Of a stretch of DNA of 39,612 bases, positions 3,852 to 19,561 are shown piece by piece. This DNA is from Tranquillimonas alkanivorans (GTDB taxonomy: Bacteria; Pseudomonadota; Alphaproteobacteria; Rhodobacterales; Rhodobacteraceae), in contig NZ_FOXA01000022.1 of assembly GCF_900115595.1 (NCBI RefSeq), positions 1 through 39,612 of the forward strand, given 5' to 3'. The notes beneath the pieces are model-generated. The model worked only from the letters and a program-made list of their open reading frames with translations, did no database searches and was not told the origin of the DNA. Each line of letters starts with the position of its first letter. Within the stretch, counting starts at the first letter, position 1. The position numbers and the translations under genes are program-made.

Positions 3852-4634
3852 ATGAAACTAGCACTCGTCCCGTCTCTCGCCTTCGCGCTTGGCCTATGCG
3901 CGGCCGCGGCCGGCGCCCAGACGCTGGAGATCGGCGCGTACCCCTCGAACCCGCCATGGGAGTTCAAGAACGAGCAGAGCGAGTTCGAGGGCTTCGAGGT
4001 GGATCTGGTGAAAGAGATCGCCGAGCGGATGGGAGCGGAGTTGAACATCCAGGACCTCGGCTTCCAGGCGCTCTTCGCCGCCACCAGTTCGGGCCGGATC
4101 GACATGGCGATCTCGACCATCACGGTGACGCCGGAACGCCTGGAAAACCAAGCGTTCACGCAGCCTTACTATGACAGCGACCTCGGCCTCGTGACGGGCG
4201 CGGCGGGCGTGGAGAGCCTGGAGGAAATGGAAGGCAAGACCGTTGGCGCGCTCGCTAGTTCGACCGGCGAGAAGTGGATCAACGAGAACATGGAGGAGTA
4301 CGGCTTCGGCGAATACCGCAGCTACTCCAGCCAGCAGGGCCTGCTGCTCGACGTTGCGAACGGGCGCGTGGCGGCCGGCATCGGCGACATCCTCGGCTTT
4401 GAGTTCGCCGCCGAACAGATGCCGGCCCTCGACGTGACGCAGCGTATCCGTACCGGAGAGCAGTTCGCGATCATGATGCCCAAGAACTCGGACAAGCTTG
4501 AGGAAGTGAACGCCGCCATCACCGAGATCAAGGAAGACGGCACTATGGCCGAACTCTATCGCAAGTGGCTGGAGGCCGAACCGGCCGCGGGAACGTCGAC
4601 GGTGACGGTGCTGCCGATCCCCGGAATGGAGTGA
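3852..4634 (+). CDS. Amino-acid-type ABC transporter substrate-binding protein
   Basis: 260 residues, family 3 extracellular solute-binding protein (the family of polar amino acid and opine receptors). There is a signal peptide at 1-22 (cut near AGA/QTL). Family landmarks: 'YPSNPPWEFKNEQSEFEGFEVDLVKEIAERMG' (ligand pocket start), 'FQALFAATSSGRIDMAISTITVTPERLENQAFTQPYY' (hinge and pocket, with the arginine that usually binds the ligand carboxylate) and 'AELYRKWLEAEP' at the C terminus. AGGAGAGGAAG precedes the ATG. A terminator-like hairpin separates it from the permease gene, which would give excess binding protein as is common for such operons. The linked aminotransferase suggests an amino acid or amino-acid-like ligand; identity unknown. 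Confidence 0.92.
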   Translation: MKLALVPSLAFALGLCAAAAGAQTLEIGAYPSNPPWEFKNEQSEFEGFEVDLVKEIAERMGAELNIQDLGFQALFAATSSGRIDMAISTITVTPERLENQAFTQPYYDSDLGLVTGAAGVESLEEMEGKTVGALASSTGEKWINENMEEYGFGEYRSYSSQQGLLLDVANGRVAAGIGDILGFEFAAEQMPALDVTQRIRTGEQFAIMMPKNSDKLEEVNAAITEIKEDGTMAELYRKWLEAEPAAGTSTVTVLPIPGME

Positions 4635-4654
4635 GCCCAAAGCGCGGCTCTGGC

Positions 4655-4685
4655 GGGCGGCCTTCTCGGAGGCCGCCCTTTCTTT
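4655..4685 (+). terminator. Intrinsic terminator / attenuating hairpin after the binding-protein gene
   Basis: Perfect 8-bp stem GGGCGGCC (4655-4662) with GGCCGCCC (4671-4678), an 8-base loop, then TTTCTTT. It lies 20 bases after the binding-protein stop and 19 bases before the permease start. It probably lets only part of the transcription continue into the permease and aminotransferase genes. Confidence 0.75.
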
Positions 4686-4704
4686 CGCAAGGCTCTGACT
4701 CTAC

Positions 4705-5373
4705 ATGGACTTCGCCGAAACATTTCTGAACTGGGACGTCATCGTCCGCATCTACCCGATGCTGCTCAAGGGCGTGTGGAACACGCTCGCGCTGGCGTTC
4801 ACCACCATCGTCGGCGGCGGCATCGTCGGCGTGCTAATCTGCCTCGTCCGTCTTTACGCCGCGCGCCCGCTGCGCTGGCTCGCCATCGCCTATGTCGACG
4901 TCTTCCGCGCCATCCCGATCCTGGTGCTGCTGGTGCTGGTGTATTACGCGCTGCCCTTCATGGGCGTACGGCTGTCCTCCTTCACCTCGGCCGTCGTGGC
5001 GCTGGGGCTGGTCTTCTCTTCATTCACGGCCGAGGTATTCCGCGCGGGCATCCAGGCCATTCCGAAGGGCCAGGTCGAGGCGGCCGAGGCGCTGGGTCTT
5101 CCGTTCCGCGTCACCATCTGGAAAGTAATCCTGCCGCAGGCGCTGAAGATCGCGATCCCGCCGCACACCTCTAACTCGGTCGCCATCGCCAAGGACACCT
5201 CTCTCGCCTCGGTCGTGGCGATGCCGGACCTTCTGAAGCAGGCGACCGATGCGCAGGCTCTTACGGCGAACCCCTCGCCGTTGATCGCGGCGGCCGTGAT
5301 GTACCTGATTTTCCTTCTGCCCGCCGTGCGGCTCGTGTCGTATTTCGAGCAGCGCTACCGCCACTCTGTCTGA
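4705..5373 (+). CDS. Amino-acid ABC transporter permease (HisMQ type)
   Basis: 222 residues with about five membrane segments. Hallmarks of the polar amino acid permeases: 'LLKGVWNTLALAFTTIVGG' at the start, 'YVDVFRAIPILVLLVLVYYALP', and the EAA loop 'EVFRAGIQAIPKGQVEAAEALGLPFRVTIWKVILPQALKIAIPP', which docks with the ATPase. It follows the binding-protein gene on the same strand, with the aminotransferase gene starting 10 bases after its stop. Unusually, there is only one permease and no ATPase gene next to it: either it works as a homodimer with an ATPase encoded elsewhere or the locus has lost genes. Confidence 0.92.
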   Translation: MDFAETFLNWDVIVRIYPMLLKGVWNTLALAFTTIVGGGIVGVLICLVRLYAARPLRWLAIAYVDVFRAIPILVLLVLVYYALPFMGVRLSSFTSAVVALGLVFSSFTAEVFRAGIQAIPKGQVEAAEALGLPFRVTIWKVILPQALKIAIPPHTSNSVAIAKDTSLASVVAMPDLLKQATDAQALTANPSPLIAAAVMYLIFLLPAVRLVSYFEQRYRHSV

Positions 5374-5383
5374 GGTCCTCCCC

Positions 5384-6547
5384 ATGTCGCGCCGCTTCGC
5401 CAAACGCATCACCGAGACGTCGAAGAAGGACTTCGGAATGTTCGCCAGAGCCCTGGGCCGGGAGGGCGACCTGATCCACCTGGAACTCGGGATGCCGGTC
5501 GAGGACACGCCGGAGCACATCAAGGAGGCGACGGTCGCCGCACTCCGCGCCGGGCATGTCCACTATTCCGACCTGCAGGGCCTGCCCGACCTGCGCGAGG
5601 CGCTGGCCGAGAAGATGCGCCGCGACAACGGCATGGACGTGGCCGCCGACGAGGTGCTGGTGACCAACGGCCTGACTCAAGCCAGCTTCGCCGCCTTCTT
5701 CGCCTTCCTCGATCCCGGCGACGAGGTGATCCTGCTGTCGCCCTACTACCCACAGCACGTCGGCAAGATCGAAATGGCAGGGGCGACCCCGGTTTTCGCG
5801 CCGCTCGATGCGAGCGACGGCTTCTCGATCAAGCGCGAGTTGATCGAGCCGAAGATCACGGCCCGGACGCGGATGATGGCGCTGGTGAACCCGTGCAACC
5901 CAACGGGCCGCGTCTATTCCCGCGACGAGTTGCAGGTGCTGGCCGACCTGGCGGTCGAGCATGACCTGCTGGTGACCTCGGACGAGGTCTACGAGCACAT
6001 TGTCTACGACGGTGCCGACCACACCTCGATCGCGTCGCTGCCGGGGATGAAAGACCGCACGATCACCATGTCGGCCTTTACCAAGGCCTATGCCATGGAC
6101 GGCTGGCGGCTTGGCTACCTCGCCTGCGACCGCGCGCTGATGCCGGGGCTGATGAAGATCACCACGTCCGAGGTCACGCACGTCAACACCTTCATCCAGC
6201 ACGGCGCGCTCGCGGCCGTCACGGGGCCGCGCGAGGTACTGGCGGGCATGGTGGCTGACGACCAGGCGCGGCGCGATCTGGTGGTGTCGCGGCTGAATCA
6301 GATGCCGGGGGTGACATGCCCCGCGCCCGGGGGGACGATCTATGCCTTCCCCGACATCTCGGGCACCGGCATGAAGGCGCAGGAGACGGCGGACGCGATC
6401 CTCGACTCCGTCGGCGTGGTGGTGGAATCCGGCCGCTTCTACGGGCCCGAGGGCGAACATCACCTGCGCATCTGCTTCGGCGCGCAGACGCTGGAGCGGC
6501 TGGAAGAGGCGATGGACCGCCTCTCCCGCTTTTTCAACGATCTCTAG
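5384..6547 (+). CDS. PLP-dependent class I/II aminotransferase (A)
   Basis: 387 residues, the usual length for fold-type I aspartate-aminotransferase relatives. Visible sites: 'YSDLQGLPDLREALA' (about 61-75), NPCNPTG at 169-175, 'SDEVYE' with Asp200 and Tyr203 for the PLP ring nitrogen and O3', and the Schiff-base lysine Lys234 in 'SAFTKAYAMDGWRLGY'. The Arg of 'HLRICFG' near the C terminus is the usual carboxylate binder. The gene follows the permease gene by 10 bases, so import and transamination of the same compound is a reasonable inference. Its stop shares a CTAG with the stop of the convergent gene. Substrate not identifiable; aromatic or branched amino acids are possible. Confidence 0.92.
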   Translation: MSRRFAKRITETSKKDFGMFARALGREGDLIHLELGMPVEDTPEHIKEATVAALRAGHVHYSDLQGLPDLREALAEKMRRDNGMDVAADEVLVTNGLTQASFAAFFAFLDPGDEVILLSPYYPQHVGKIEMAGATPVFAPLDASDGFSIKRELIEPKITARTRMMALVNPCNPTGRVYSRDELQVLADLAVEHDLLVTSDEVYEHIVYDGADHTSIASLPGMKDRTITMSAFTKAYAMDGWRLGYLACDRALMPGLMKITTSEVTHVNTFIQHGALAAVTGPREVLAGMVADDQARRDLVVSRLNQMPGVTCPAPGGTIYAFPDISGTGMKAQETADAILDSVGVVVESGRFYGPEGEHHLRICFGAQTLERLEEAMDRLSRFFNDL

Positions 6548-7665
6548 AAAAGCCGTTTCAGCGCGTCGAGCAGCCGCTCGACGTGCGCCTCCGTCGTGAC
6601 CACACCCGGCGACAGGCGCAGGATCGGACCGCGCGCGTCGGTGAAGATCTGTGCCTCGCGCAGCCCGTTCACCACGCCGGCCGGGTCCGTCACGTCGGGA
6701 AGACGCAACATCACGCTGCCCCCCCGCCGCGACCGCTCCGCCGGGCTTGCGGGCGTCACCCCGAGGCCAGGCGCGGCGTCGAGGATCATGTCGCAGAGTG
6801 CCTGGCTGTGCGCCAGCAGCGCCGCCCGGTCCTGCGCCGACTGCCACTTCAGCCCCGGCACCGAGCCGACGGCCGCCAGCGGCGCTGGCGTCCCGGCGTC
6901 GAACCTGCGGGCGTCGGGGGCATAGTCGAAAGCGTCGAGGTCCCACGAGAACGGGTTGGGCTGACTGAACCACCCCCGCAGCTCCGGTCGGCAGGTCCGA
7001 AGCAGGTCCGGCCGGACGTGAAGGATGCCAGCTCCAGGCGCGCCGCAGAGCCACTTGAGCGAGGTCGAGACGACGATCTCCGGCTTGAGCTGCGTGACCG
7101 AGAACGGCACCACTCCAATCCCCTGCGTGAGGTCGAGCGCCACAAGGCTCCCCACGGCCCGGCAGGCCGGGATCAGCGCGTCGAGGTTGCAGCGGTGCGA
7201 TGCGGTGGAGGTGACGAAGGTCAGCAGCGTCAGCCCCACGTCGGGACCCAGCCGCGCGATCACGTCCTCGTCCCTCACCCACGTCTCACCCTCGCGCAAC
7301 GGCACGGTGTCGAGCTTGAAGCCGAAGCGCTCGGCAAGGCCGGACAACAGGAAGTGCAGGCTCGGGAAACAGTCGGTGGCGACGAGCACGCGCTTGCCCT
7401 CCAGGTGCTCGGACGGCAGCCCGCCGATCACTGTGTAGAGGGCAGCGGTCACCGACTCCGCCGTCGTCAGCGACCCTGCCGGCGCTTCGATCAAGCTTTC
7501 CCACAGCGATAAAAACTCTGCCCGCGCCGCCAGCACGCGCGGCCACTGTGCGTCGTCCAGCGCGCCCCAGATGGAGGAGAACCCTGACAGCGCCTCCGCC
7601 ATCTCCCGGTCCTTGCCGGGATAGAGGCCGATGGAGTGATACAGGAAGTAGGCCGGGTCGCTCAT
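6544..7665 (-). CDS. Kynureninase-like PLP enzyme (class V fold)
   Basis: 373 residues. The order of motifs is that of kynureninase / class V enzymes: 'LVATDCFPSLHFLLSG', 'LLTFVTSTASHRCNLDALI', 'VALDLTQGIGVVPF' (Asp178 under the PLP ring), Schiff-base Lys204 in 'STSLKWLCGAPGAG', and 'RRFDAGTPAPL' (the GTP loop typical of kynureninase). Kynureninase cleaves kynurenine to anthranilate and alanine; relatives act on other beta-keto amino acids or as aminotransferases/lyases. The protein is shorter than typical bacterial KynU (about 415 residues) and no tryptophan dioxygenase is nearby, so 'like' is deliberate. It is translationally coupled (ATGA) to the upstream bicupin gene and convergent with aminotransferase A. 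Confidence 0.82.
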   Translation of the reverse strand: MSDPAYFLYHSIGLYPGKDREMAEALSGFSSIWGALDDAQWPRVLAARAEFLSLWESLIEAPAGSLTTAESVTAALYTVIGGLPSEHLEGKRVLVATDCFPSLHFLLSGLAERFGFKLDTVPLREGETWVRDEDVIARLGPDVGLTLLTFVTSTASHRCNLDALIPACRAVGSLVALDLTQGIGVVPFSVTQLKPEIVVSTSLKWLCGAPGAGILHVRPDLLRTCRPELRGWFSQPNPFSWDLDAFDYAPDARRFDAGTPAPLAAVGSVPGLKWQSAQDRAALLAHSQALCDMILDAAPGLGVTPASPAERSRRGGSVMLRLPDVTDPAGVVNGLREAQIFTDARGPILRLSPGVVTTEAHVERLLDALKRLF

Positions 7666-8747
7666 GTCAGCGTCGTCTCGAACCGGCCGGGAAGCGAGAC
7701 CTCGAGCAATTCGATGTCGTCCGAGAGGTCAGCGTAGCGCGTCTTCATCCCCGGCGGGATCACGAAGGCGTCGCCCGCCTGCAACCGGTGCGGCGCACGC
7801 CCCTCGCCCTCGAGCGTCATGGTGCCGTCCATAACGAAGGCGAACAGGATGTCGGCGTCGTGCGCCGCCCACGCGGGCGCACCCTCGCCCTTCTTCGCCA
7901 CGTGCACGCCCGCCACGTTCTGCGTGTTTTCCGCGATGGTCGTGTCACGGCTGATCAGGCCCGGCAGGCGGAACGGCCGCCACTCGGCCTCGTCGGCCTT
8001 GTGATGCACGAACCTCTGCCCCTGGAAGCGCCGGTCGGGGTTCGCCGGGCCGTTGGGCAGCGTCATCTCGTGGTCGATGGTCGTGACGTGCTCGGCCGGG
8101 ACGCCGATCTCGACCACCTCGATCTCGTCCGAGGCATAGAGCACGCGATGCCGGATCTCGGGGGGCTGGATCACGCAGTTCCCGGCATAGAGGCGGAAGG
8201 GCTCGCCCTGATCCTCATAGACCAGATCGACCCAGCCCCGGTAGCAGAAGATCAGCTGAAAGCCGACCGTGTGGTAATGGACCATGTCCGGAACGGGCCC
8301 GCCGTCGGGAATGCGGATATGGCTGGCGATGATCGACCCGCCCAGCCGGTCGGGGATCAGGTCGCGGTAGTGCATTCCCGCCCGACCCACGATCCACGGC
8401 GCCTGGTCGGCGAGACGGCGCACCACGAAGGAATGCAGCGTCGCGGGCAACACCAGCGGCGGGTTCATCTCCACGATCTCGATCCGCGTGCCGTTGGGCG
8501 CGGTGAGCTCCCGCTTGCCGCCGGCGAAGGCGTCGGGGTCGTCCATGCGCAGGCGCAGGGTGCCCGGCGGCTCGGGCGCGTCCTTCTCGATCCTCAGCCG
8601 GACGCCGTGGCCCGAGAACACGCCGACCTGCGGATCGTCGGCCGGATAGATCATGTCGAGCCGCATACCCAGCGTCTTGGTGAAGAAGGGGATGTCGTCC
8701 CGCAGCTCCTGCGTGGGCAGCCGGATCTCGGCCAGGATGTCGCTCAT
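7662..8747 (-). CDS. VOC-bicupin fusion protein, probable metal-dependent dioxygenase or isomerase
   Basis: 361 residues. Residues 1-100 look like a glyoxalase/VOC module ('AEIRLPTQELRDDIPFFTKTLGMRLDMIYP', then 'VRLRIEKD' and 'PNGTRIEIVE'). Two cupin barrels follow. Cupin 1 (about 140-225) has a plausible metal site: His157 and His159 in 'VHYHT', Gln164 in place of the usual Glu, and His200 in 'PPEIRH'. Cupin 2 (about 275-350) keeps the fold signature 'GDAFVIPPGM' but only one early His (His296) and no late His, so it is probably not metal-binding. Bicupins include quercetinase-type and gentisate-type dioxygenases. First gene of a two-gene minus-strand unit with the kynureninase-like gene, and divergent from the SDR. 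Reaction unknown. Confidence 0.75.
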   Translation of the reverse strand: MSDILAEIRLPTQELRDDIPFFTKTLGMRLDMIYPADDPQVGVFSGHGVRLRIEKDAPEPPGTLRLRMDDPDAFAGGKRELTAPNGTRIEIVEMNPPLVLPATLHSFVVRRLADQAPWIVGRAGMHYRDLIPDRLGGSIIASHIRIPDGGPVPDMVHYHTVGFQLIFCYRGWVDLVYEDQGEPFRLYAGNCVIQPPEIRHRVLYASDEIEVVEIGVPAEHVTTIDHEMTLPNGPANPDRRFQGQRFVHHKADEAEWRPFRLPGLISRDTTIAENTQNVAGVHVAKKGEGAPAWAAHDADILFAFVMDGTMTLEGEGRAPHRLQAGDAFVIPPGMKTRYADLSDDIELLEVSLPGRFETTLT

Positions 8748-8841: not shown

Positions 8842-9576
8842 ATGACCAAGCGCATCGCGGCCGTGACCGGAGCGGCCGGTGGTATGGGGCGCGCCATCGT
8901 CGCTCGGCTGGTGCAGGACGGCATGGCCGTCGCCGGGCTCGACATCGACGCCGAGGGGCTGGAGGGGATGGCCGCGACCCACGGCGGGGCCTTCCTGGCC
9001 TGTCCGACGGACCTCATGCAGGCCGACGCCATCGCAGCCGCCTTCGAACGGATCGACGGTGAACTCGGCGGGCTCGACGCGCTGGTGAACAACGCCGGCA
9101 CCTGCTTCATGTCCGAGTTCCCCGAGATACCGGAGGACGAGTTCGAGAAGCAGATGAAGATCAACTTCTCGGCCGCGTTCCACTGTTGCCAGGCCGCCGT
9201 GCCGCGGATGCTTAAGCGCGACGGGGTGAAGAAGATCGTCAACATCTCGTCCAACGGCGCCTACAACTTCGATGTCTTCGACCCGCCGCATTACCGCGCC
9301 TCGAAGGCCGCGATGGACACGCTGACCAAGGACCTCGCCCGCCGCTACGCGCGCGAGAAGATCGCGGTGAATTCCATCGCCCCGGCGATGACCGAGACGC
9401 CGCTGTTCGACGTGGTCAGCGAAGAGGTGCTCGAGAAGGCCATCGCGCAGATGCCCCACGGCCGCCCCATGCGGCCCGAGGAGGTCGCGGCCTGGGTCGG
9501 TTTCCTGATCTCGCCCGCCGGGGACATCTCCAGCGGCAACGTCATCATCCTGAACCAGGGCCGCGATGTGCGCTAG
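8842..9576 (+). CDS. Short-chain dehydrogenase/reductase (classical SDR)
   Basis: 244 residues. Cofactor motif TGAAGGMG at 9-16, 'LVNNAG' ending at residue 86, catalytic Ser136/137 in 'NISSNG', Tyr151 and Lys155 in 'YRASK'. Asp34 after the second strand ('GLDID') suggests NAD(H) rather than NADP(H). The ATG at 8842 is preceded by GGGGAGGAGG; longer versions of the frame run into the divergent promoter and are less likely. It probably oxidises or reduces a hydroxyl/keto intermediate of the surrounding pathway. The insertion 'YNFDVFDPP' just before the catalytic Tyr is distinctive. Stop codon shared with the convergent MBL gene in a CTAG. Confidence 0.92.
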   Translation: MTKRIAAVTGAAGGMGRAIVARLVQDGMAVAGLDIDAEGLEGMAATHGGAFLACPTDLMQADAIAAAFERIDGELGGLDALVNNAGTCFMSEFPEIPEDEFEKQMKINFSAAFHCCQAAVPRMLKRDGVKKIVNISSNGAYNFDVFDPPHYRASKAAMDTLTKDLARRYAREKIAVNSIAPAMTETPLFDVVSEEVLEKAIAQMPHGRPMRPEEVAAWVGFLISPAGDISSGNVIILNQGRDVR

Positions 9577-10331
9577 TCGTAGAACTCCGGCGCCTTGCGC
9601 AGTTCCGGCCATTGCTCGGGGCCGTGACCGTAGATGACGAAGGCGCCCCGCTCCTCGGCCAGCCGCATCAGGCGCCGCGCGCTGTCCAGCGCCAACTCGG
9701 GATCGGGGGCCGTGTCGAAGCGCTCCTCGATCTCGGAGGGGCGCGAAATCGCGTCGCTCACGATGAGGACGGGGCCCGTGTTCGGCAGTTCAATCATCAT
9801 CGCGAGCTGGCCGGGCGCATGACCGGGGGCCTGCAGCACCTCGAACCCCGGCCCGATGCGGGTGTCGTCGGCGAGGGTCACATACTCCCGCTCGGGCCAG
9901 TCCCACGGCTGCCCGCCCGTCCAGTAAAGCGGCTTGGGCAGCGCCCTCTCCCGCTCGGAAATCAGCATCGGCGCCTGCGGGAAGTCGAACAGCCCGCCAA
10001 GGTGGTCGATATGCGTGTGGGTGAGGATGAAGAGGTCGATATCCTCCGGCCGCACGCACGCCTTCGCCAACTGCCCTTTCGGCAGGTTCTCGTGCGTCAG
10101 CGACAGGACGTTGCCGAAAGCGCCCAGCGCGTCCTCCTCGGTCGCGCGGTCGGCGTCCTCGGCGTATTTGGCGGGAAAGCCGCTGTCGATCAGCACGCGC
10201 TCGCCTGCGTCGGTGGTGACGAGAAAGCCGACGATGCCGATGTCGCGGGGGCCGGCGTGGACCCGGAAGAACCCGAAATCCAGAACGTAAAGGCGCTCGG
10301 GCCGTCCCTTCAGCAGTTTCAACTCGTCCAT
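9573..10331 (-). CDS. Metallo-beta-lactamase fold hydrolase, N-acyl-homoserine-lactonase-like
   Basis: 252 residues from the ATG at 10331, which has a GGGGAGG site nine bases upstream; an in-frame start six codons earlier lacks one. The zinc motif is HTHIDH (105-110), with His171 in 'APGHAPGQ', Asp193 in 'IVSDAI' and a late His in 'YGHGPEQW'. This spacing and the 'VLIDSGF' start resemble the AiiA/AttM lactonase group, which opens lactone rings. In a catabolic cluster it could equally hydrolyse a pathway lactone or thioester instead of a quorum signal. It is divergent from aminotransferase B with only 41 bases between the starts, so their promoters must overlap. Confidence 0.88.
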   Translation of the reverse strand: MDELKLLKGRPERLYVLDFGFFRVHAGPRDIGIVGFLVTTDAGERVLIDSGFPAKYAEDADRATEEDALGAFGNVLSLTHENLPKGQLAKACVRPEDIDLFILTHTHIDHLGGLFDFPQAPMLISERERALPKPLYWTGGQPWDWPEREYVTLADDTRIGPGFEVLQAPGHAPGQLAMMIELPNTGPVLIVSDAISRPSEIEERFDTAPDPELALDSARRLMRLAEERGAFVIYGHGPEQWPELRKAPEFYD

Positions 10332-10372
10332 CACGCAGCGCCTCCCCAATTCGTTTTGCAGGCAAGGTGACC

Positions 10373-11737: not shown

Positions 11738-12283
11738 TCAGTCCCGCCGCTGCGTCGTGGCGGACAGGGCCGCCCGGTCATAGATTCCGCACAGGATCTC
11801 GAGTGTCTGGGCGGCCTCTCCCAAGACCGTCTCTGCGTCGTCGAGGCGGCCCAGCAGCCTTACAAGCAGGGCCTGACGCACCTCGGCGTAGCGGTCAGTG
11901 ACAGCGCGCCCCTTCTCCGTCACGCTGTATAGGACGCCGGTGCGCGACGCGCCCTCGCGCTCGATCAGCCCGCCCTTCGCGAGCTTGCGCAGCCCGTACT
12001 GAATGTTCGGAATGTCCTCGCGGTTCGTGAGCCGCGCGATTTCTTTCACCGATTTAGGGCGGTCATTCATGCGGATGACGTGCAGCAGCGCGTTTTCAGC
12101 GCCGCTAGCCTGCACGTCGCCGCTGGAAGCAAGGCACTCGGCCTGCCAACGGCTGAAGGATTCCGTCGCACGCATGAGCGCGAACTCCAGGTCAGCCAGA
12201 CGCCGTTCGAGGGGCGAGTCGCCGAGGTGCCACCGATGTTCGAAGTGACCGGCGGATGACACAGGAGGAGTGTTTTTCGTCAT
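11738..12283 (-). CDS. MarR-like winged-helix transcriptional regulator
   Basis: 181 residues. An N-terminal dimer helix (about 25-55, 'LERRLADLEFALMRATESFSRWQAEC') is followed by a winged helix: 'SGAENALLHVIRMNDRPKSVKEIARLTNREDIPNIQYGLRKLAKGGLIER' with recognition helix 'IPNIQYGLRKL' and wing 'GVLYSVTEKGRAVTDRYAEVR'. A C-terminal dimer helix completes a MarR-type architecture. It is divergent from the flavin monooxygenase gene, and a 20-bp AT-rich palindrome sits between the two starts; ligand-relieved repression of that gene and itself is the simplest reading. The ribosome site before the ATG is weak. Confidence 0.85.
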   Translation of the reverse strand: MTKNTPPVSSAGHFEHRWHLGDSPLERRLADLEFALMRATESFSRWQAECLASSGDVQASGAENALLHVIRMNDRPKSVKEIARLTNREDIPNIQYGLRKLAKGGLIEREGASRTGVLYSVTEKGRAVTDRYAEVRQALLVRLLGRLDDAETVLGEAAQTLEILCGIYDRAALSATTQRRD

Positions 12284-12391: not shown

Positions 12392-13507
12392 ATGCGCGAC
12401 TTTCTGAAGTCCGACCATTTCAAGCTGGGCACGTTCTCGACCAACTGTTCGAGCGGCATGACCGTCACCAAGGTCAACGAACGCTGGGATAACAGCTGGA
12501 AGAACAACCTGCGCCTGGCGCAGATGCTGGACGATGCCGGCATCGACTTCATGCTGCCCATCGCCCGCTGGATCGGCTACGGCGGCGAAACGAACTTCCA
12601 CCACAACGTACTCGAGACGATGACCTGGGCCACGGCCCTTCTGGCCAAGACCGAGCGACTGACGATCTTCGCCACCATGCATACTGCGGCGAACAACCCG
12701 GTGGTCGTGGCCAAGCAGATCGCCACCGCCGACCAGGTGGGCCGCGGCCGCATTGGGCTGAACATCGTGGCGGGCTGGAACAAGCCGGAGTACGAGGCGC
12801 TCGGCCTCACTCTGCCCGACGACCACGAAACGCGCTACGGCTACGCGCAGGATTGGTTCGATGTCGTCCAGAAGCTCTGGACCAGCGATGAGATCTTCGA
12901 CTGGACGGGAAAGTACTTCGACCTCAAGGGCGTACTGGGCAACCCCAAGCCCGTGGACGGCCGCCCGCCGATCCTCAACGCCGCCGGCTCCGGACAGGGG
13001 CGCGAGTTCGCGACCCGGAACGCGGACTTCCTGTTCACTCCCGCCATCGACCTCGAACGCTCGGTGGGCGAGGTTCAGCAGATCAAGGACCAGGCGGCCG
13101 AGAAGGGGCGTAAGGTGGGCGTGCTGACCTTCAGCCACATCTGCTGCCGACCGACTGAGAAGGAGGCGCGCGAAGTGCACCAGTGGTACGCGCAGGACAA
13201 CGCGGACTGGGAGGCCGTGGACAACCTCGTGAACCTGCAATTCGCCAACGCGCAGAGCTTCCCGCACGATCTCCTGGCGCTCATCAAGGACCGCATGGCA
13301 GCGGGCCATGGCGGCTTTCCCCTGGTGGGCACGCCCGAGCAGGTTGCAGACGGGATCGAGAGCCTTGCCAAGGCCGGCTTCGCGGGCAGCACGATGTCCT
13401 TCCTCGACTACGCGGAAGAGTTTCCGTACTTCCGCGACGAGGTCCTGCCGCTGCTGGCCGAGAAGGGCCTGCGCCCCGGTGCGCCGGCCTCCGTCGCCGC
13501 GGAGTAA
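12392..13507 (+). CDS. LLM-class flavin-dependent monooxygenase, RutA-like
   Basis: 371 residues, bacterial luciferase-like TIM-barrel fold. The block 'RWIGYGGETNFHHNVLETMTWATALLAKTERLTIFATMHT' and 'GRGRIGLNIVAGWNKPEYEALG' closely parallel RutA (GFGGKTEF...HNLES; GRFGVNLVTGWQKPEYE), the pyrimidine monooxygenase that opens uracil via a flavin-N5-oxide. Related enzymes (DszA, HcbA1) cleave C-S or C-Cl bonds. Such enzymes use FMNH2 from a partner reductase and O2. A strong AAGGGAGGAG precedes the ATG. The nitroreductase gene overlaps its stop (TAATG), suggesting a coupled pair. No other rut genes are present, so the substrate is probably another cyclic or linear amide/heteroatom compound. Confidence 0.88.
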   Translation: MRDFLKSDHFKLGTFSTNCSSGMTVTKVNERWDNSWKNNLRLAQMLDDAGIDFMLPIARWIGYGGETNFHHNVLETMTWATALLAKTERLTIFATMHTAANNPVVVAKQIATADQVGRGRIGLNIVAGWNKPEYEALGLTLPDDHETRYGYAQDWFDVVQKLWTSDEIFDWTGKYFDLKGVLGNPKPVDGRPPILNAAGSGQGREFATRNADFLFTPAIDLERSVGEVQQIKDQAAEKGRKVGVLTFSHICCRPTEKEAREVHQWYAQDNADWEAVDNLVNLQFANAQSFPHDLLALIKDRMAAGHGGFPLVGTPEQVADGIESLAKAGFAGSTMSFLDYAEEFPYFRDEVLPLLAEKGLRPGAPASVAAE

Positions 13508-14160
13508 TGGCCACACCCGAGGACATGGCGCGGCGCTATGCGGTCAAGCGTTTCATTCCCGGCCAGCGCGACGACGCCGCGCTGGCCAGGGCCCTCGAGG
13601 CGGCGCGGCTCGCGCCGTCCTCCTTCGGGCTGCACCCCTGGCGCATCGTCCGGGCCGAGGATCCGCAGGTGCGCCGGGCCGTGCTGGATCGTGCTTACGG
13701 GCAGGAAAAGGTCGTCACTGCGGGCCATCTGCTCGTTTTTGCGAGCCGCTCTCCGCTCACGGAGGACGACGTCGATGCGCATGTGGATCTGACGGCCCGC
13801 ATCCGCCCCCTCGACGAGGCGGCGCGCGAGAAACTGCGCGGCACTCTGGTGAAGAACGTGCTGGAACGGCACGACGCGGCTGGTCTCGACGCTTGGTGCC
13901 GCGCGCAGTGCTACCTAGGCCTCGGCGTGTTCCTTTCGGCTTGCGCGACGCTGCGGCTGGACGCCTTCCCGATGGAGGGGTTCGACCCGCAGGCTGTCAC
14001 CCGGCTGCTCGGCCTCGACCGGGAGCGCCTGACGGCGCAGGTGCTCGTCACCGCCGGATACGGCGCGCCGGACGACGCCGAGGCCGCCCGGCCGAAGGTC
14101 CGCCTCGCCCGGGGGAATTTCGTTCTCGACGCCGGGCTTCCCACCACTGCTCAAGCTTGA
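13507..14160 (+). CDS. NfsB-like nitroreductase family flavoprotein
   Basis: 217 residues from the ATG at 13507, which shares its A with the TAA of the monooxygenase gene. Family marks: 'RRYAVKRFIPG' (FMN phosphate site), 'EAARLAPSSFGLHPWRIV' (the S-S-x-x-x-x-P-W block), 'AGHLLVFASRSPLTEDDV', and 'AWCRAQCYLGLGVFLSACATLRLDAFPMEGFD', the helix and loop over the flavin. These dimeric FMN enzymes use NAD(P)H to reduce nitro groups, quinones or flavins. Coupling to an LLM monooxygenase suggests either supply of reduced flavin or reduction of a product such as a hydroxylamine or enone. Substrate not determinable. Confidence 0.9.
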   Translation: MATPEDMARRYAVKRFIPGQRDDAALARALEAARLAPSSFGLHPWRIVRAEDPQVRRAVLDRAYGQEKVVTAGHLLVFASRSPLTEDDVDAHVDLTARIRPLDEAAREKLRGTLVKNVLERHDAAGLDAWCRAQCYLGLGVFLSACATLRLDAFPMEGFDPQAVTRLLGLDRERLTAQVLVTAGYGAPDDAEAARPKVRLARGNFVLDAGLPTTAQA

Positions 14161-14272: not shown

Positions 14273-15850
14273 TCACGCCCGCCCGGCGGTGGTGAACGAG
14301 CGGATGGTGTCGAGCGCGCCGTCGAGCGCCTCGCCCTTCGGATCGGCCAGCGCCGCCTGGATCAGTCGCGCCGTCCAGTCGGCGGCGTCGTCCCGCCCCT
14401 CGACCAGCGCCGCGCCCGACATCACCCGGTCGAACTTCGACAGGCCGCGGGCGTGGGTGTCGCTGTAGCCCTTGATCAGGCGGCGAATCTTCAGCGTCTC
14501 GACCGCGTGGGGGTAGTCGCGCGGCAGGCGATCGAGCGCGGTGGCGAGCCAGGCGTCGATGTGCGCCATCTCGCGCTCGTGCCGCAAGAGCGACCGGCGC
14601 CAGCGGCGCAGGCCGCCCACGATGTAGAGCGACACGAACGACGGCAGGCGGTCGGTCCGCATCCGGCGGCCGCGGTTCATCACCCGGTCCACGAAGGCAT
14701 AGACCTTCGGCCGCGACTCGATCCACTTTCCAAGCCGCGCCGGCATCACGCTGACGAACTCGGCCGCGCCGGGGTGGACGTATTCGGTGATTTGCACCAG
14801 CGTCCCGTCCGCCGCGCGCACCTCCTGCGCGATGCGGTCGAAGCGGCCCGCGCGGGTCTTGAGGTCGGCCACCCGCAGGATGTCGTCATAGGCCATCGCG
14901 TTGGCAAGGTACTTCGCCGCGGTGGCGGTAAAGTCGAAACCGTGCGCCTCGCCCTCGGCCGCACGGTCCTTCGCCAGCAGATCCTCGACACGATCCATGT
15001 ATTCGCGGCCATAGGCCGTGTCCTGGTAGTCGACGATCTTGCGCAGGCCCGCCGACGCCAGCGGCCGCACCGTCTCGGGCAGCGCCTCTACCCGGTCGCA
15101 AAGGGCCTTCCACTCGCCCATCAGCGCCTCGGGGCCGCGCGCGGCCGACGCAGCAGCCTTCGGCTCGGGTGCGGGCTCGGCCTCGACACGCCGCGCCTCC
15201 GCCGCCTCGCGCGCCAGTTCGAAGGCGCGAAGCGACTGCTCGACCCCGCGACCCGAGGCGCGGATGGTCTCGCGGTAGGTTTCGGCCTCGAACGGCAGCG
15301 TGCCGGACCCTGCCAGCGCACCGAAGAGGCTGGCGGAGATGACGGACCCCGCCTCCTGCGCCATCGCCTCCATGTCGAAGGCGATGAACTCGCGCGCGGC
15401 TTCCTCGGCGGCCTTCCGCACTTCGGTGCTGTCGGCAAGCCCCGACCCCGGCACGACCTTCTCGCTAACGGCGAGCGCGCGGTGGGACGAGGCGATGAGC
15501 GTGGTGCGGTCGGGGGTGACGAAGCCTCGCATGATGGCGCGGCCGGCTTCCATCATCTCGGCGGCAATCAGGATGTCCACGTCGCCCTCGGCCGGGGCCA
15601 GCGCGAAGACCGGTTGCTTGCCGTCGTCGGGCAGCATCTCGACATAGTAGATCGTCGCGCCCGTGCGCTGCGCGACACCGGCGACCGAGGTCGCCTGCGC
15701 GGCATAACCGTTGCGCTCGGCCAGATCGACGATCCAGTTGGTCAGGACGCCGCCGCCCTGCCCGCCCACGGCGAGGCAGGCGAGCTTGATGATCTGGTCG
15801 AGCCGCGCGTCGGGCGCCTTGGCCTTCAGGATCGGTGCTGTCTGGTTCAT
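14273..15850 (-). CDS. iorB: Indolepyruvate oxidoreductase subunit B, long form
   Basis: 525 residues; the ATG at 15850 overlaps the iorA stop (ATGA), so the frame further upstream is not coding. Residues 20-210 are the pyruvate:ferredoxin-oxidoreductase gamma domain ('LACLAVGGQGGGVLTNWIVDLAERNGYAAQ..SVAGVAQRTGATIYYVEM'), which forms the active dimer with IorA. The remaining ~300 residues, absent from archaeal IorB (about 200 residues), form the helical C-terminal extension seen in aerobic proteobacterial versions ('YGREYMDRVEDLLA', 'AMAYDDILRVADLKTRAGRFDRI', 'LPSFVSLYIVGGLRRWRRSL'). The complex decarboxylates an aryl-pyruvate to aryl-acetyl-CoA. Gene order on this strand is cyclase, MarR, iorA, iorB. 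Confidence 0.9.
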   Translation of the reverse strand: MNQTAPILKAKAPDARLDQIIKLACLAVGGQGGGVLTNWIVDLAERNGYAAQATSVAGVAQRTGATIYYVEMLPDDGKQPVFALAPAEGDVDILIAAEMMEAGRAIMRGFVTPDRTTLIASSHRALAVSEKVVPGSGLADSTEVRKAAEEAAREFIAFDMEAMAQEAGSVISASLFGALAGSGTLPFEAETYRETIRASGRGVEQSLRAFELAREAAEARRVEAEPAPEPKAAASAARGPEALMGEWKALCDRVEALPETVRPLASAGLRKIVDYQDTAYGREYMDRVEDLLAKDRAAEGEAHGFDFTATAAKYLANAMAYDDILRVADLKTRAGRFDRIAQEVRAADGTLVQITEYVHPGAAEFVSVMPARLGKWIESRPKVYAFVDRVMNRGRRMRTDRLPSFVSLYIVGGLRRWRRSLLRHEREMAHIDAWLATALDRLPRDYPHAVETLKIRRLIKGYSDTHARGLSKFDRVMSGAALVEGRDDAADWTARLIQAALADPKGEALDGALDTIRSFTTAGRA

Positions 15851-17997
15851 TGCGCGGCCTCCCAGCTGAGCCTGCGGCTGGCCCGGCGGGCCTGCAGCCA
15901 GTCGATCACGCGGCGCTGCCAGCGCGCCCAACGCGTTTCGAAATCCGATGGGTTGTGCACCAGGTCCGCGCGATAGAACGACGGGCAGAGCACGGCGGTA
16001 TCCGCCACCTCGCCACAGTTGCCGCAGCCGACGCAGCTCTGGTCGATGTGCGCGATCGGATCGTCGCGCAGCGGATCGTCGGGCATCTTCAGCGTCAGCG
16101 ACGGGCAGCCCGAAAGCCGCATGCAGGCGTGATCGCCGGTGCACACGTCCTCGTCCACGCCGAACTTCGGCTTCTCGACGCGCCGCCCTTCCTTGATCGC
16201 CTGCTTCAACAGCGGCTTCTCGCGGCGCTGGCGGTTCAGCATGCATTCCGAGGACGCGACGATGACCTTCGGCCCCTCGTGGTCGGTGGTCAGCGCCTCT
16301 TTGAGCGTCTCGCGCATCTTGCCGACGTCGTAGGTGCGGTCGATCTGGCGCACCCATGTGACGCCGACGCCCTTCACCGCCTCGGTGATCGGGTGCTTCG
16401 TAGCCTTCGACTTGTTGTCCGCGCGGCTCGACAGGATGTCCTGCCCGCCGGTGGCGGCCGAGTAGTAGTTGTCGACCACGATGGTCACGCCGTCGGACTT
16501 GTTGAACACGGCGTTGCCGATCGATGAGGACAGCCCGTTGTGCCAGAAGCCCCCGTCCCCGATGATCGAAATCGGGCGCTTCTCGCCGCCCCCGTCGAAG
16601 GCGGCGTTGGAGGCCGGGCCGAGGCCGTAGCCCATCGTCGTGCCGCCGATCTCGAACGGCGGCATGATGGAGAAGAGGTGGCAGCCGATGTCGGCCGAGA
16701 CCTGGTGCGGCCCGGTCTCCTCTTCCACCAGCTTCATCGCGGCGAAGATCGGGCGCTCGGGGCAGCCGGTGCAGAAGCCCGGCGGACGAGCCGGGACGGT
16801 CTTCGACAGATCCGGCACGTCCGAGGGCGCGGGCCGGTTCGGCGCACGGGCGAGGTCGGGCAGGATGCCGGGCGCGTGGGCCTTCAGGAACGCCTCGACG
16901 CCTTCGTACATCACCTTGCCGGTGTATTCGCCGGCCATCGGCAGCACGTCCTTGCCCGCGAGCTTCACCGTCGCGCCGGCCTTGTGCAGGATCGAGCGGA
17001 GGTTCTGTTCGATCAGGTCGGGCTGGCCCTCCTCGACCATGAGCACGGCGTCCTTGCCCTCGCAGAACTCCAGGAATTCCTCGTCCACGATCGGGTAGGT
17101 CACGTTCAGCACGTAGAGCGGCACTTCGCTTTCACCGTGCACGTCGGCAAGGCCGAGGCGCTGGAGCGCACGGATCACGCCGTTGTACATGCCGCCCTGC
17201 ATCACGATGCCGACCTTGCCGTCCTCGGGGCCGAAGCGCTCGTTCAGCTGGTTCTCGCGGATGTATTTCACCGCGGCGGGCCAGCGCTTCTCGATCTTCT
17301 CCTTCTCGTGAAGGTAGGAGGCCGGCGGCAGCACGATCCGCCCGGTGTCGCGCTGCGGGTTCGCCAGCGCATCGCGCACGGTCAGCGGCGGCGGCACGTT
17401 GTCTTTCGCCTCGAACGAGCCGTGGACGTGGCAGCAGCGGATGCGGACCTGAAGCATGACGGGCGTGTTCGACGCCTCGGACAGCTCGAAGCCGTGGCGC
17501 ACGGCGTCGGTGATCGACGGAAGGTTCGGGCGCGGATCCAGAAGCCAGATCTGCGACTTCTGCGCGAAGGGGTGCGAACGCTCCTGCATGATCGAGGAGC
17601 CTTCGCCGTAATCCTCGCCCACGATGATGAGCGCGCCGCCCTTCACCCCGCCCGAAGCGAGGTTGGCCAGCGCGTCCGAGGCGACGTTGGTGCCCACGGT
17701 GGACTTGAACGTCACCGCCCCCCGGATCGGGTAGTGGACCGAGGCCGCGAGCATCGCCGCGGCGGCGGCTTCGCTGGCGTTGGCCTCGAACCGGATGCCG
17801 AGCTCGCCCATCAGCTCCTCGGCGTCGGCGAGCACGTCCATCAGGTGACTGATCGGCGCGCCCTGATAGCCGCCGACATATCCCACGCCGTTTTCCAGCA
17901 GCGCCTTCGTGATGGCGAGGATGCCCTCGCCACGAAAGGTCTCGCCCGCGCCGATGCGTAGCTGTTCGACCTCTTTCTTGAACGACCTCTCGGCCAT
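15847..17997 (-). CDS. iorA: Indolepyruvate ferredoxin oxidoreductase subunit A
   Basis: 716 residues. N-terminal pyrimidine-binding half ('YVGGYQGAPISHLMDVLADA', 'FEANASEAAAAAMLAASVHYP', 'KSTVGTNVASDALANL'); TPP/Mg half around 'GFCTGCPERPIFAAMK', 'DIGCHLFSIMPPFE' and 'SIIGDGGFWHNGLSSSIGNAVFNKSDGVTIVVDN', the GDG...N cofactor motif. At the C terminus are two Fe-S regions: an atypical C-x5-C-x5-CP ('VCTGDHACMRLSGCP') and a canonical CxxCxxC...CP ('CVGCGNCGEVADTAVLCP'). The enzyme turns indolepyruvate or phenylpyruvate plus CoA into the acyl-CoA, CO2 and reduced ferredoxin. A GGGGAGG site precedes the ATG. A copy of the ATGCANNTGCAA motif lies about 30-40 bases upstream. Two aminotransferases in the cluster could supply its 2-oxoacid. 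Confidence 0.93.
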   Translation of the reverse strand: MAERSFKKEVEQLRIGAGETFRGEGILAITKALLENGVGYVGGYQGAPISHLMDVLADAEELMGELGIRFEANASEAAAAAMLAASVHYPIRGAVTFKSTVGTNVASDALANLASGGVKGGALIIVGEDYGEGSSIMQERSHPFAQKSQIWLLDPRPNLPSITDAVRHGFELSEASNTPVMLQVRIRCCHVHGSFEAKDNVPPPLTVRDALANPQRDTGRIVLPPASYLHEKEKIEKRWPAAVKYIRENQLNERFGPEDGKVGIVMQGGMYNGVIRALQRLGLADVHGESEVPLYVLNVTYPIVDEEFLEFCEGKDAVLMVEEGQPDLIEQNLRSILHKAGATVKLAGKDVLPMAGEYTGKVMYEGVEAFLKAHAPGILPDLARAPNRPAPSDVPDLSKTVPARPPGFCTGCPERPIFAAMKLVEEETGPHQVSADIGCHLFSIMPPFEIGGTTMGYGLGPASNAAFDGGGEKRPISIIGDGGFWHNGLSSSIGNAVFNKSDGVTIVVDNYYSAATGGQDILSSRADNKSKATKHPITEAVKGVGVTWVRQIDRTYDVGKMRETLKEALTTDHEGPKVIVASSECMLNRQRREKPLLKQAIKEGRRVEKPKFGVDEDVCTGDHACMRLSGCPSLTLKMPDDPLRDDPIAHIDQSCVGCGNCGEVADTAVLCPSFYRADLVHNPSDFETRWARWQRRVIDWLQARRASRRLSWEAAQ

Positions 17998-18037: not shown

Positions 18038-18102
18038 ACACTCTGAGAAGGGTGGTTCCGTCGAAATTGCAAGGAATGCCCGCCAAGGTCGCGGGTGCGC
18101 GG

Positions 18103-18594
18103 TCAGAGTTCGTGCCGGCGCACGTTCTTGAGCATTTTCTGAAGCGTTCCCACGAAGGCCGCCCGCTCGTCCTGGCTGACGCCCGCGAACATTTCCTCAT
18201 AGCGGGCGTGCATCGTCGGCCAGACCCGGTCGAATTCGTGCCGGCCCTTGTCGGTCAGGTAGACCTCGCGCACCCGCGCGTCGCTCTCCCTCTCCTGCCG
18301 GCGCACCAGCCCCGCCTTCTCGAGCGCCTCGAGTGTCCGGCTCATCGTCGACTGCTCGGTGACGGCATAGACCGACAACTCGTTGATGGTCAGTCCCGGC
18401 ACCACCGCGAGCACCGCAAGCGTGCGCATCTTCGCCGTGGTCAGGTTCTGCGCCTTCAGCGCGCTCTGAATGTTCGCATTGTAGCGCCCCATGATGCGGT
18501 TCATCAGATAGGGCGCGAAATGCCACAGGCCGATTTCGCCAAGGCTGACGTCCGGCCGCTGGACCGCTTCGCTTCCGGACGCATCTTCAGCCAT
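18103..18594 (-). CDS. MarR-family transcriptional regulator
   Basis: 163 residues from the ATG at 18594; an in-frame ATG at 18687 would add about 31 residues that look unlike a MarR N terminus, so the start is not certain. MarR fold: dimer helix 'HFAPYLMNRIMGRYNANIQSAL', helix-turn-helix 'MRTLAVLAVVPGLTINELSVYAVTEQSTMSRTLEALEKAGLVRRQE' (recognition helix 'EQSTMSRTLEAL'), wing 'RESDARVREVYLTDKGRHEFD'. MarR regulators of indole-acetate and phenylacetate catabolism are well known (IacR). Its position between the cyclase gene and iorA, both preceded by the same motif, makes it the best candidate to bind that motif; this is inference. Confidence 0.88.
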   Translation of the reverse strand: MAEDASGSEAVQRPDVSLGEIGLWHFAPYLMNRIMGRYNANIQSALKAQNLTTAKMRTLAVLAVVPGLTINELSVYAVTEQSTMSRTLEALEKAGLVRRQERESDARVREVYLTDKGRHEFDRVWPTMHARYEEMFAGVSQDERAAFVGTLQKMLKNVRRHEL

Positions 18595-18751
18595 CTTCGT
18601 CACCCGAATCTGTTTGCCACCGCCCTCGGCCGCCTGCGTGGCCAGCGCCCGCCAGCGGTAGAGGTTCCGAGCGCCCGGACGATGCATCAACGATCATCCG
18701 AGAGAACACCAGCGCGAAACCCCGCCGGCGGCCGGTCACCCTTACCGACGC

Positions 18752-18768
18752 TGCCGGCGAGGCCGGCA
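18752..18768 (-). terminator. Hairpin just after the cyclase gene
   Basis: TGCCGGC (18752-18758) and GCCGGCA (18762-18768) form a 7-bp stem with a 3-base loop, 5 bases beyond the cyclase stop. No T-tract is present on the minus strand, so termination is uncertain. Confidence 0.3.
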
Positions 18769-18772
18769 AGGG

Positions 18773-19561
18773 TCACGCGGGGACGAGCGCCATCGCCCGT
18801 ATGGGGCTTCCGGTGCCACGCCTGATCTTGAGCGGCGCGGCGACCATCACTGCCCCCTTGGGCGGCAGCTGATCAAGGTTGGCCAGCGACGCGAGCCCGA
18901 AGCAGTTGTCACGGTGCAGGAAGTTGTGCGCCGGGAACGGCGGCTCGAGCCCGCCGGCGCAGCCCGCGTCGGTGCCAATGCACTGCGTGCCCCAGCCGAC
19001 GATTTTCTTCGACAGCAGGTACTCGATGCACTCGGGGGTCGGTCCGGGCGAATGCGGGCCGTTCTCGTCGGCGTTCAGGAAAGCGGCCTCGTCGTCAGCG
19101 CGCTTGTCCCAGTCCGTGCGCATGACGACCCACTCGCCCTCGCCGATCTCGCCGTGCTGCTCTTCCCACGCCTTCACGTGCTCTGGCGTCAGCAGGAAGT
19201 CGGCGTCCTCCGCACTTTCCTTCGAGAAGTCGAGCACGTTGACCGGGGCGACCGTGCGCTGGAGCTCGAGCGTGTCGGTATAGCCCTCCTCGTAGTCCTT
19301 CCCGGTGACCCAATGGTGCGGCGCGTCGAAGTGCGTGCCCGAATGTTCGCCCAGCACCATCCAGTTCCAGGCGAAGAAAGGCCCGTCCTGGTCGTATTCG
19401 CTGATCTTGTGGATCTCGACTTTCGGCGTGTTCTTCGCGAAGTCGGGCGGAAGCTGGAGGATCGGCGTGTCGGGGCCGAGCGATCCCGAAAGATCCACCA
19501 CCTTCACCTCGCCGCTCAGAAGCTTCGCACCCAGTTCCTTAACCAAGTTTTCCGCCGACAT
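18773..19561 (-). CDS. Cyclase-family metal hydrolase (isatin hydrolase / kynurenine formamidase-like)
   Basis: 262 residues. The family metal motif is clear: 'GEHSGTHFDAPHHW' (HxGTHxDxPxH), preceded by the 'VVDLSGSLGPDTPILQLP' start and followed by 'WVVMRTDW', 'VGWGTQCIGTDAGCAG' and 'HNFLHRDNCFGLASLANLDQLPPKGAVMVAAPLKIRRGTGSPIRAMALV', the typical C-terminal core. Members hydrolyse cyclic or formyl amides: KynB acts on N-formylkynurenine and isatin hydrolase opens isatin to isatinate in indole-acetate breakdown. Length (262) and the WGTQCIGTDAG block look nearer to isatin hydrolase than to KynB (about 210 residues). GGGAGGGAAGAG precedes the ATG, and the shared operator motif lies 50-61 bases upstream. 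Substrate unproven. Confidence 0.85.
   Translation of the reverse strand: MSAENLVKELGAKLLSGEVKVVDLSGSLGPDTPILQLPPDFAKNTPKVEIHKISEYDQDGPFFAWNWMVLGEHSGTHFDAPHHWVTGKDYEEGYTDTLELQRTVAPVNVLDFSKESAEDADFLLTPEHVKAWEEQHGEIGEGEWVVMRTDWDKRADDEAAFLNADENGPHSPGPTPECIEYLLSKKIVGWGTQCIGTDAGCAGGLEPPFPAHNFLHRDNCFGLASLANLDQLPPKGAVMVAAPLKIRRGTGSPIRAMALVPA

Follow-up and report, generated by a model that had tools for sequence, protein, structure and literature searches.

The window analysed here, one entire contig of 39,612 nucleotides (C31 of 92) from the Rhodobacteraceae-type genome of Tranquillimonas alkanivorans, holds a set of genes that is on balance best explained as a conserved catabolic island with isatin at its centre. 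At its core are a kynureninase-like pyridoxal 5'-phosphate (PLP) enzyme, a relative of isatin hydrolase B, and IorAB, a 2-oxoacid oxidoreductase of two subunits. The functional link of the PLP enzyme to isatin hydrolase B and IorAB is well supported, and many alphaproteobacteria of sea and soil carry the island genes together. We propose that an amino-acid-like precursor would be imported by an ABC transporter and that the PLP enzyme would cleave its beta-gamma bond to give isatin and alanine. The isatin hydrolase would then open isatin to isatinate (2-aminophenylglyoxylate), and IorAB, acting as an aryl 2-oxoacid:ferredoxin oxidoreductase, would convert isatinate to 2-aminobenzoyl-coenzyme A (2-aminobenzoyl-CoA) and CO2. 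The ring would finally be degraded by a 2-aminobenzoyl-CoA gene set, which lies on another contig of the window genome. The module from isatin through isatinate to 2-aminobenzoyl-CoA is likely; that the PLP enzyme produces isatin or isatinate is a claim to which we give an even chance.

Genes were called from open reading frames (ORFs) and codon-position composition, and domains were assigned with Pfam and NCBIfam scans. All the enzymes listed in the initial annotation are present, the majority as members of a single recurring island. The genes that matter for the argument are these:

3852..4634, + strand: family 3 solute-binding protein of an amino-acid ABC transporter (PF00497, E 4.5e-35)
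4705..5373, + strand: amino-acid ABC transporter permease (PF00528, E 8e-27)
5384..6547, + strand: aminotransferase 1, class I/II, aspartate/aromatic aminotransferase-like (PF00155, E 4e-63; top PDB matches 1gd9, 1j32 and 1dju)
6544..7665, - strand: kynureninase-like fold-type-I PLP enzyme, proposed isatin-releasing lyase (PF00266, E 4e-17; KYNU_C under cut-off)
7662..8747, - strand: bicupin protein with a weak N-terminal part resembling the vicinal oxygen chelate (VOC) fold (Cupin_2, two stretches)
8842..9576, + strand: short-chain dehydrogenase/reductase (SDR) oxidoreductase (PF13561, E 7.5e-47)
9573..10349 with an ATG at 10331, - strand: metallo-beta-lactamase-fold (MBL) lactonase-like hydrolase (PF00753)
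10367..11500, + strand: aminotransferase 2, class I/II (PF00155, E 5.6e-41; top PDB match 3op7)
11738..12283, - strand: winged-helix (MarR-like) regulator, apparent optional insert, divergent from the luciferase-like monooxygenase gene (HTH_27, E 2.7e-13)
12392..13507, + strand: luciferase-like flavin mononucleotide (FMN) monooxygenase of the SfnG/RutA superfamily, apparent optional insert (PF00296, E 1.5e-59)
13507..14160, + strand: nitroreductase-family protein, apparent optional insert (PF00881, E 3.3e-18)
14273..15856, - strand: IorB, 2-oxoacid oxidoreductase beta subunit with DUF6537 (NF006179, POR, DUF6537)
15847..17997, - strand: IorA, thiamine pyrophosphate (TPP)-dependent 2-oxoacid:ferredoxin oxidoreductase alpha subunit (TPP_enzyme_C; IOR_alpha)
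18103..18690, - strand: MarR-family regulator (MarR_2, E 1e-11)
18773..19561, - strand: isatin hydrolase B relative, cyclase family (PDB 4j0n/4m8d, E 1.4e-154)
19802..22639, - strand: tripartite ATP-independent periplasmic (TRAP) transporter DctM/DctQ/DctP (PF06808, PF04290, PF03480)

The first body of evidence is co-occurrence. We searched the proteins of 295 Rhodobacteraceae genomes, tallied as 295 genera and taken as independent in the Fisher tests. The PLP protein was counted at E 1e-40 or better; thresholds vary among the searches, each identity class depends on one query, and some genomes are fragmented. On this footing the PLP protein is found in 37 genomes. Isatin hydrolase matches occur in 59, of which 50 reach at least 60% identity, and at that level the hydrolase is present in 34/37 PLP-positive and 16/258 PLP-negative genomes (p 7e-29). 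IorA matches, some at 52-57% identity, occur in 71 genomes and in 35 of the 37 (p 3e-23). A monooxygenase/reductase of the 2-aminobenzoyl-CoA type is found in 106 genomes (four at just 48-50% identity, including G081), and again the PLP-positive ones are enriched, 34/37 against 72/258 (p 4e-14). Hydrolase, IorA and monooxygenase/reductase occur together in 31 of the 37, and in 20 of the 37 the PLP and hydrolase genes are no more than 20 kb apart. Every one of the 50 genomes with the hydrolase at that level also has a match to IorA, which in 42 of them is less than 6 kb away, and 46 have the monooxygenase/reductase. The dependence runs one way: the PLP gene is without the hydrolase in 3/37 genomes, and the hydrolase is without the PLP gene in 16/50.

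The second body of evidence is gene order. Neighbourhoods of up to 20 kb were taken from 34 of the 36 other PLP-positive genomes of the family, excluding the truncated copies of G188 and G030, and window-gene matches in them were scored at at least 35% identity. An alignment-based scan of GTDB species gave 356 further stretches encoding PLP relatives. The best 80 of the 356 were used with 10 kb flanks (several shorter), and they come from roseobacters, Mesorhizobium, Aminobacter, Hoeflea, Devosia, Ochrobactrum and others. Among the 34 Rhodobacteraceae loci the hydrolase is found in 18 (one of them merely an A-type match, 49%), IorA in 7, binding protein and permease in 6, bicupin in 6, monooxygenase/reductase in 6, the block of aminotransferase 2, MBL and SDR in 5, aminotransferase 1 in 4 and the luciferase-like monooxygenase in 2. 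The best 80 loci have the binding protein in 46, permease 45, aminotransferase 1 in 28, hydrolase 21, monooxygenase/reductase 19, MarR 19, IorA 17, SDR 13, MBL 11, aminotransferase 2 in 11 and bicupin 1. Hydrolase matches were present in all 30 of the PLP-positive genomes tested from among the 80 (outside the 295 and mostly Rhizobiales), 29 at at least 55% identity and one, a metagenome-assembled genome, at 49%. The MarR regulator recurrently sits between hydrolase and IorA in other loci. L061 has eight window genes as an exact mirror image, in order as well as orientation; the remainder of that contig (L096) carries the hydrolase, MarR, IorA, IorB and the monooxygenase/reductase set. In L100, from Palleronia abyssalis, nine window genes keep their order and orientation. 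The initial annotation had said that a lack of conserved co-occurrence would refute it. Across genomes the reverse is seen: the PLP protein, isatin hydrolase, IorAB, amino-acid transporter, aminotransferases, SDR and MBL recur together.

A further link is a gene fusion. The PLP protein is followed by the hydrolase in a single stop-free frame in 11/114 loci, all 11 of them among the 34 from the Rhodobacteraceae, and every hydrolase half keeps the [FW]xW and GLAS motifs. IorA and IorB come after the fusion gene in L084, and in L087 and L088 the two are encoded immediately downstream of it on the same strand. The fusion ties the PLP reaction to isatin chemistry and IorAB. One could still suppose that the window holds independent operons that became neighbours by chance, namely a nucleoside-linked cupin, generic aminotransferases, and separate isatin and monooxygenase operons. 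The bicupin fits such a view, since it occurs in 14/61 relatives, lacks the window partners around its copies in the 13 other genomes (one weak DctM match aside) and has switched context three times or more by its phylogenetic tree; so does the monooxygenase trio, which is rare near the PLP gene. The mirrored order in L061, the nine genes kept in L100, the co-occurrence statistics and the fusions all speak against it, and we regard it as very improbable for the island as a whole. For the core of PLP enzyme, hydrolase and IorAB it is already refuted, and for the cupin, the monooxygenase trio and the TRAP genes it is possible.

Some other features of these neighbourhoods should be recorded. Identity of L100 to the window is uneven in the co-linear island (hydrolase 95%, IorA 87%, PLP protein 69%), which suggests a mosaic history. 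In many relatives (L060, L062, L067, L072, L076, L079, L096-L098) the hydrolase is flanked by CrtO/phytoene-desaturase-like flavin adenine dinucleotide (FAD) proteins and an opp-type ABC transporter, which are absent from the window. A second gene of the class V aminotransferase/cysteine-desulfurase-like kind lies near the PLP gene in 35 of the best 80 loci (for example L122, 12826-14136). A small protein that looks by eye START/SRPBCC-like directly follows the PLP gene in L104 (11119-11565), and its family occurs in 12 loci.

The initial annotation had an isatin-hydrolase-like enzyme, and this holds at full length. As judged from its sequence, the "cyclase" at 18773-19561 is a full-length relative of isatin hydrolase B. 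It matches the Labrenzia isatin hydrolase B structures 4j0n/4m8d over residues 1-261 (516 bits to 4j0n, E 1.4e-154), and isatin hydrolase A structures match at E ~1e-82. Passages of one study give the signature motifs of these enzymes as HxG[T/A]HxDxPxH, [W/F]xW and GLAS/GLQC (PMC6117287), and the window protein has HSGTHFDAPHH, FAW and GLAS, so the isatin-type metal motif, [W/F]xW and GLAS are intact. With the arylformamidase (KynB) model TIGR03035 it scores 26.9 bits, far under the cut-off of 223. Isatin hydrolase B of Labrenzia aggregata shares with it a nearly full-length match and the signature motifs; in the literature passages the Labrenzia enzyme has no pathway context, whereas the window relative has a PLP enzyme and IorAB as linked partners.

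The two oxidoreductase subunits differ in their model scores. IorB scores 671.9 bits with NF006179 (PRK08312 family; cut-off 348), which places it in the indolepyruvate oxidoreductase beta family. IorA reaches 295.5 bits with the IOR_alpha equivalog, whose cut-off is 650.9, and so falls short of the indolepyruvate ferredoxin oxidoreductase equivalog; a search of its sequence against the PDB gave nothing at E 1e-8. We rejected the idea of a frameshifted IorAB fusion because the two are overlapping genes, with an internal ATG for IorB at 15856 and the IorA stop at 15847. Downstream of isatinate, the link to ring degradation comes from loci L067, L068, L076 and L079, where the PLP gene lies near a gene for a two-domain protein joining a monooxygenase to an old yellow enzyme (OYE) domain. 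Its companions encode a benzoate-CoA-ligase-family protein, an enoyl-CoA hydratase, an acyl-CoA dehydrogenase and a 3-hydroxyacyl-CoA dehydrogenase. The L067 protein passes NF006101 (1266 vs 1078 bits), which NCBIfam names salicylyl-CoA 5-hydroxylase; from its domain architecture and gene context we take it to be 2-aminobenzoyl-CoA monooxygenase/reductase. The window genome has a counterpart (G000:C33:19096-21375, 74% to the L067 protein), and its 2-aminobenzoyl-CoA-type set on contig C33 encloses a tryptophan dioxygenase gene. The 2-aminobenzoyl-CoA pathway of the Azoarcus type has the same monooxygenase/OYE fusion, CoA ligase, enoyl-CoA hydratase and dehydrogenases. That route begins at anthranilate, whereas for the island we propose that the CoA ester is made from isatinate.

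The third core enzyme is the PLP protein. It is an Aminotran_5 protein for which the kynureninase C-terminal model falls just below its cut-off, and the NCBIfam kynureninase model TIGR01814 gives no match at E 0.01. A profile of 38 homologues has kynureninase 1qz9 as its top PDB match (E 4e-24), with an identity of ~22%. Its AlphaFold2 model has a mean predicted local distance difference test (pLDDT) score of 94.7, and a fold search with the model discriminates poorly, finding cysteine desulfurase 5b7s, C-DES 1elq and kynureninase 1qz9 about equally similar. The protein thus groups with alanine-releasing enzymes, kynureninase and the cysteine desulfurases. In the HMMER alignment K204, D178, W232 and R350 align to K227, D201, W256 and R375 of kynureninase, the last of which we take to be the arginine that binds the alpha-carboxylate, and seven kynureninase-aligned positions of the active region are invariant across the 38 sequences. 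Fold, PLP lysine and carboxylate arginine are therefore common to the two in the alignment. The low identity, three changed active-region residues, the silence of TIGR01814 and the coexistence of both proteins in genomes set them apart, and the protein fails the kynureninase pattern of a tyrosine before the PLP lysine with DxAH and GWFGH motifs. On the strength of these comparisons it is a member of an unnamed family without assigned function.

Could it all be kynurenine degradation? A divergent kynureninase (the PLP enzyme) and a kynurenine formamidase (the hydrolase) would take N-formylkynurenine through kynurenine to anthranilate, and a ligase would then make 2-aminobenzoyl-CoA. Kynureninase is indeed the top PDB profile match, tryptophan dioxygenase is found in 136/295 genomes with 34/37 of the PLP-positive and 102/258 of the others (p 5e-10), the PLP gene adjoins the monooxygenase/reductase set in 6/34 Rhodobacteraceae loci and is near it in 19 of the best 80, and two PLP-positive genomes lack both hydrolase and IorA. 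We nevertheless think it unlikely. TIGR01814 kynureninase matches at E 1e-30 or better occur in 240/295 genomes (237 above cut-off) and in 33/37 PLP-positive ones, the window's own (on contig C90) among them, so we rejected the PLP protein as a stand-in kynureninase. TIGR01814 misses the PLP protein, the arylformamidase model scores far too low on the hydrolase, the fused hydrolases carry isatin-type rather than formamidase-type motifs, and the tight link to IorAB is left unexplained.

If the PLP enzyme does release isatin, its substrate may be dioxindolylalanine (3-hydroxy-oxindol-3-yl-alanine). This is an oxidation product of tryptophan that can form an amino-gamma-lactone (a spirolactone). 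The compound fits the PLP step because its gamma carbon bears a hydroxyl and becomes C3 of isatin, so the step would be a retro-aldol cleavage, analogous to kynureninase chemistry on a gamma-alcohol. Kynureninase has retro-aldol activity on dihydrokynurenine. We hold this substrate assignment tentatively, with more doubt than confidence. The MBL protein could open the spiro-gamma-lactone as homoserine-lactone lactonases open theirs: N-acyl homoserine lactone (AHL) lactonases are its top PDB matches (E 5e-23), and the AiiA model gives 89.9 bits, under the 375 cut-off. The resemblance and the lactone make this role attractive but speculative, and we rate it as improbable. The SDR (its ORF listed from 8653, the ATG at 8842 agreeing with the domain) and the MBL protein recall the SDR and 4-pyridoxolactonase of vitamin B6 degradation. 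That assignment was rejected, the scores of 118 of 325 and 83 of 325 bits being far under the cut-offs. Indolic chemistry, one of the options in the initial annotation, is supported; tryptophan itself as the starting compound is not supported.

The annotation also stated that the set matched no known pathway. The iad loci for indole-3-acetic acid degradation are closer than it allowed. Passages on the loci of Variovorax and Bradyrhizobium describe IorA/IorB homologues, MarR regulators and an amidase, IadI, that carries a kynurenine formamidase annotation; the studies detected isatin and isatinic acid, with anthranilate as the end (PMC9613470, PMC12633357), and the later study revised the route from isotope tracing (PMC12633357). 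The oxidoreductase, regulators, amidase and isatin chemistry are thus common to both. What distinguishes the island is its PLP enzyme, in some genomes fused to the hydrolase, together with the amino-acid transporter and the link to a 2-aminobenzoyl-CoA-type set. An iad-type pathway, with IorAB turning indolepyruvate from the aminotransferases into indoleacetyl-CoA and the hydrolase acting at a late stage on isatin derived from indole-acetate, would account for the shared genes, including the amidase needed for anthranilate. It would also suit the history of isatin, which according to passages of PMC6117287 was originally reported as an intermediate when indole-acetate is degraded. Such a pathway leaves a PLP enzyme fused to the hydrolase without a function. 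A Rieske-type motif, as expected of the oxygenase IadDE, was found in 0/115 PLP-gene neighbourhoods including the window, in a search of their predicted genes that had no positive control and left other contigs unsearched. We consider the iad-type pathway quite unlikely and believe instead that the lower half of the island is iad-like while its entry, by the PLP enzyme, is different.

Several observations weigh against the isatin pathway that we prefer. Eight of the 34 Rhodobacteraceae loci have no main partner nearby (some contigs are short). G096 and G254 are near-complete, PLP-positive genomes with no hydrolase or IorA match, and in G254 (L093) the PLP gene adjoins the monooxygenase/reductase set, an arrangement that a direct anthranilate-forming PLP reaction would explain equally well. 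A 2-aminobenzoate-CoA ligase-like gene lies within the monooxygenase/reductase gene sets, so free anthranilate may be an intermediate. Kynureninase Y226, H204 and H259 are L203, Q181 and Q235 in the PLP protein, so its kynureninase-like chemistry is not guaranteed; Y226 has a role in kynureninase chemistry. The score of IorA below the indolepyruvate equivalog cut-off does not show a different substrate. Orthologues of the luciferase-like monooxygenase, its regulator and the TRAP genes were found in 0 of the best 80 loci, and pathway roles of the aminotransferases, SDR, bicupin and luciferase-like monooxygenase are unproven. Passages of the iad studies report that a nine-gene iad region is enough to restore anthranilate, and IorAB is not named in it there (PMC9613470, PMC12633357).

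Taken as a whole, an undescribed aerobic pathway for oxidised tryptophan, in which a new PLP lyase family would yield isatin and alanine and the hydrolase and IorAB would lead to 2-aminobenzoyl-CoA with no free anthranilate, is possible but doubtful. Among the matches listed, literature titles and abstract openings gave nothing on bacterial dioxindolylalanine catabolism or an isatinate oxidoreductase (subscription papers lay outside the search), and passages of one paper treat it as unsettled whether isatin is truly formed on the way when indole is degraded (PMC6221969). Isatin hydrolases have known structures, and the fusion and near-obligate pairings give the enzyme a concrete place among the steps in many alphaproteobacteria. 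The work also singles out a PLP family without assigned function and suggests a physiological sink for photo-oxidised tryptophan.

The monooxygenase trio and the bicupin gene are loosely attached. The RutA-like monooxygenase of the initial annotation stands at the superfamily level; as RutA proper it does not. The RutA equivalog gives 150.1 bits against a cut-off of 498.3 and SfnG scores higher (189 of 383), while PDB matches are SfnG 8t0u at E 3e-42 and RutA at E 2e-35, so RutA-type pyrimidine opening (the rut pathway) was rejected. The RutA-like pair seldom recurs with the set: monooxygenase orthologues (67-68%) lie near the PLP gene in the two Rhodobacteraceae loci L076 and L079, with the regulator orthologue alongside. 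In L100, co-linear apart from this, IorB and aminotransferase 2 do not have the trio of monooxygenase, nitroreductase and regulator between them, and the trio looks like an optional insert.

The annotation's VOC-bicupin is sound in its two cupin stretches; the N-terminal VOC part is a sub-threshold glyoxalase match (E 0.19). In the window the gene overlaps the start of the PLP gene, and it neighbours the PLP gene in those six Rhodobacteraceae loci. It also occurs without the PLP gene, often by a putative nucleoside operon, and being mostly away from the island in relatives it was rejected as a diagnostic partner. Around its copies in 13 other genomes none of the 18 other window query proteins was found but that one weak DctM match, and the commonest families beside it occur in 8 to 10 of these 13 loci. 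As identified by eye in L017-L029, it is often first beside genes for cytidine deaminase, thymidine phosphorylase and phosphopentomutase, with a malic-enzyme-like gene pointing away from it on the other side. The TRAP transporter is a possible uptake system of the island. In a single genome, L072, its orthologues (83/64/73%) adjoin the bicupin gene and the PLP gene; TRAP genes of another type are found repeatedly next to the PLP gene. The solute-binding protein gene at 3852..4634 has no visible ABC ATPase gene adjoining it.

Outside the island, positions 606-2873 encode a protein with a von Willebrand factor A (VWA) domain followed by about 5-6 imperfect repeats of an 80-residue unit with "DIVTIVP" and "GLYEVRYVLD"; the repeats were spotted by eye, and Pfam matches the VWA domain only. 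An unrelated-looking polyol-type operon at 22858-30562 has a mannitol dehydrogenase, an SDR, a sugar ABC transporter and a LacI-family regulator. At 31181-36015 an amidase gene adjoins genes for a branched-chain amino-acid-type ABC transporter, and an additional binding protein is encoded at 36143-37360.

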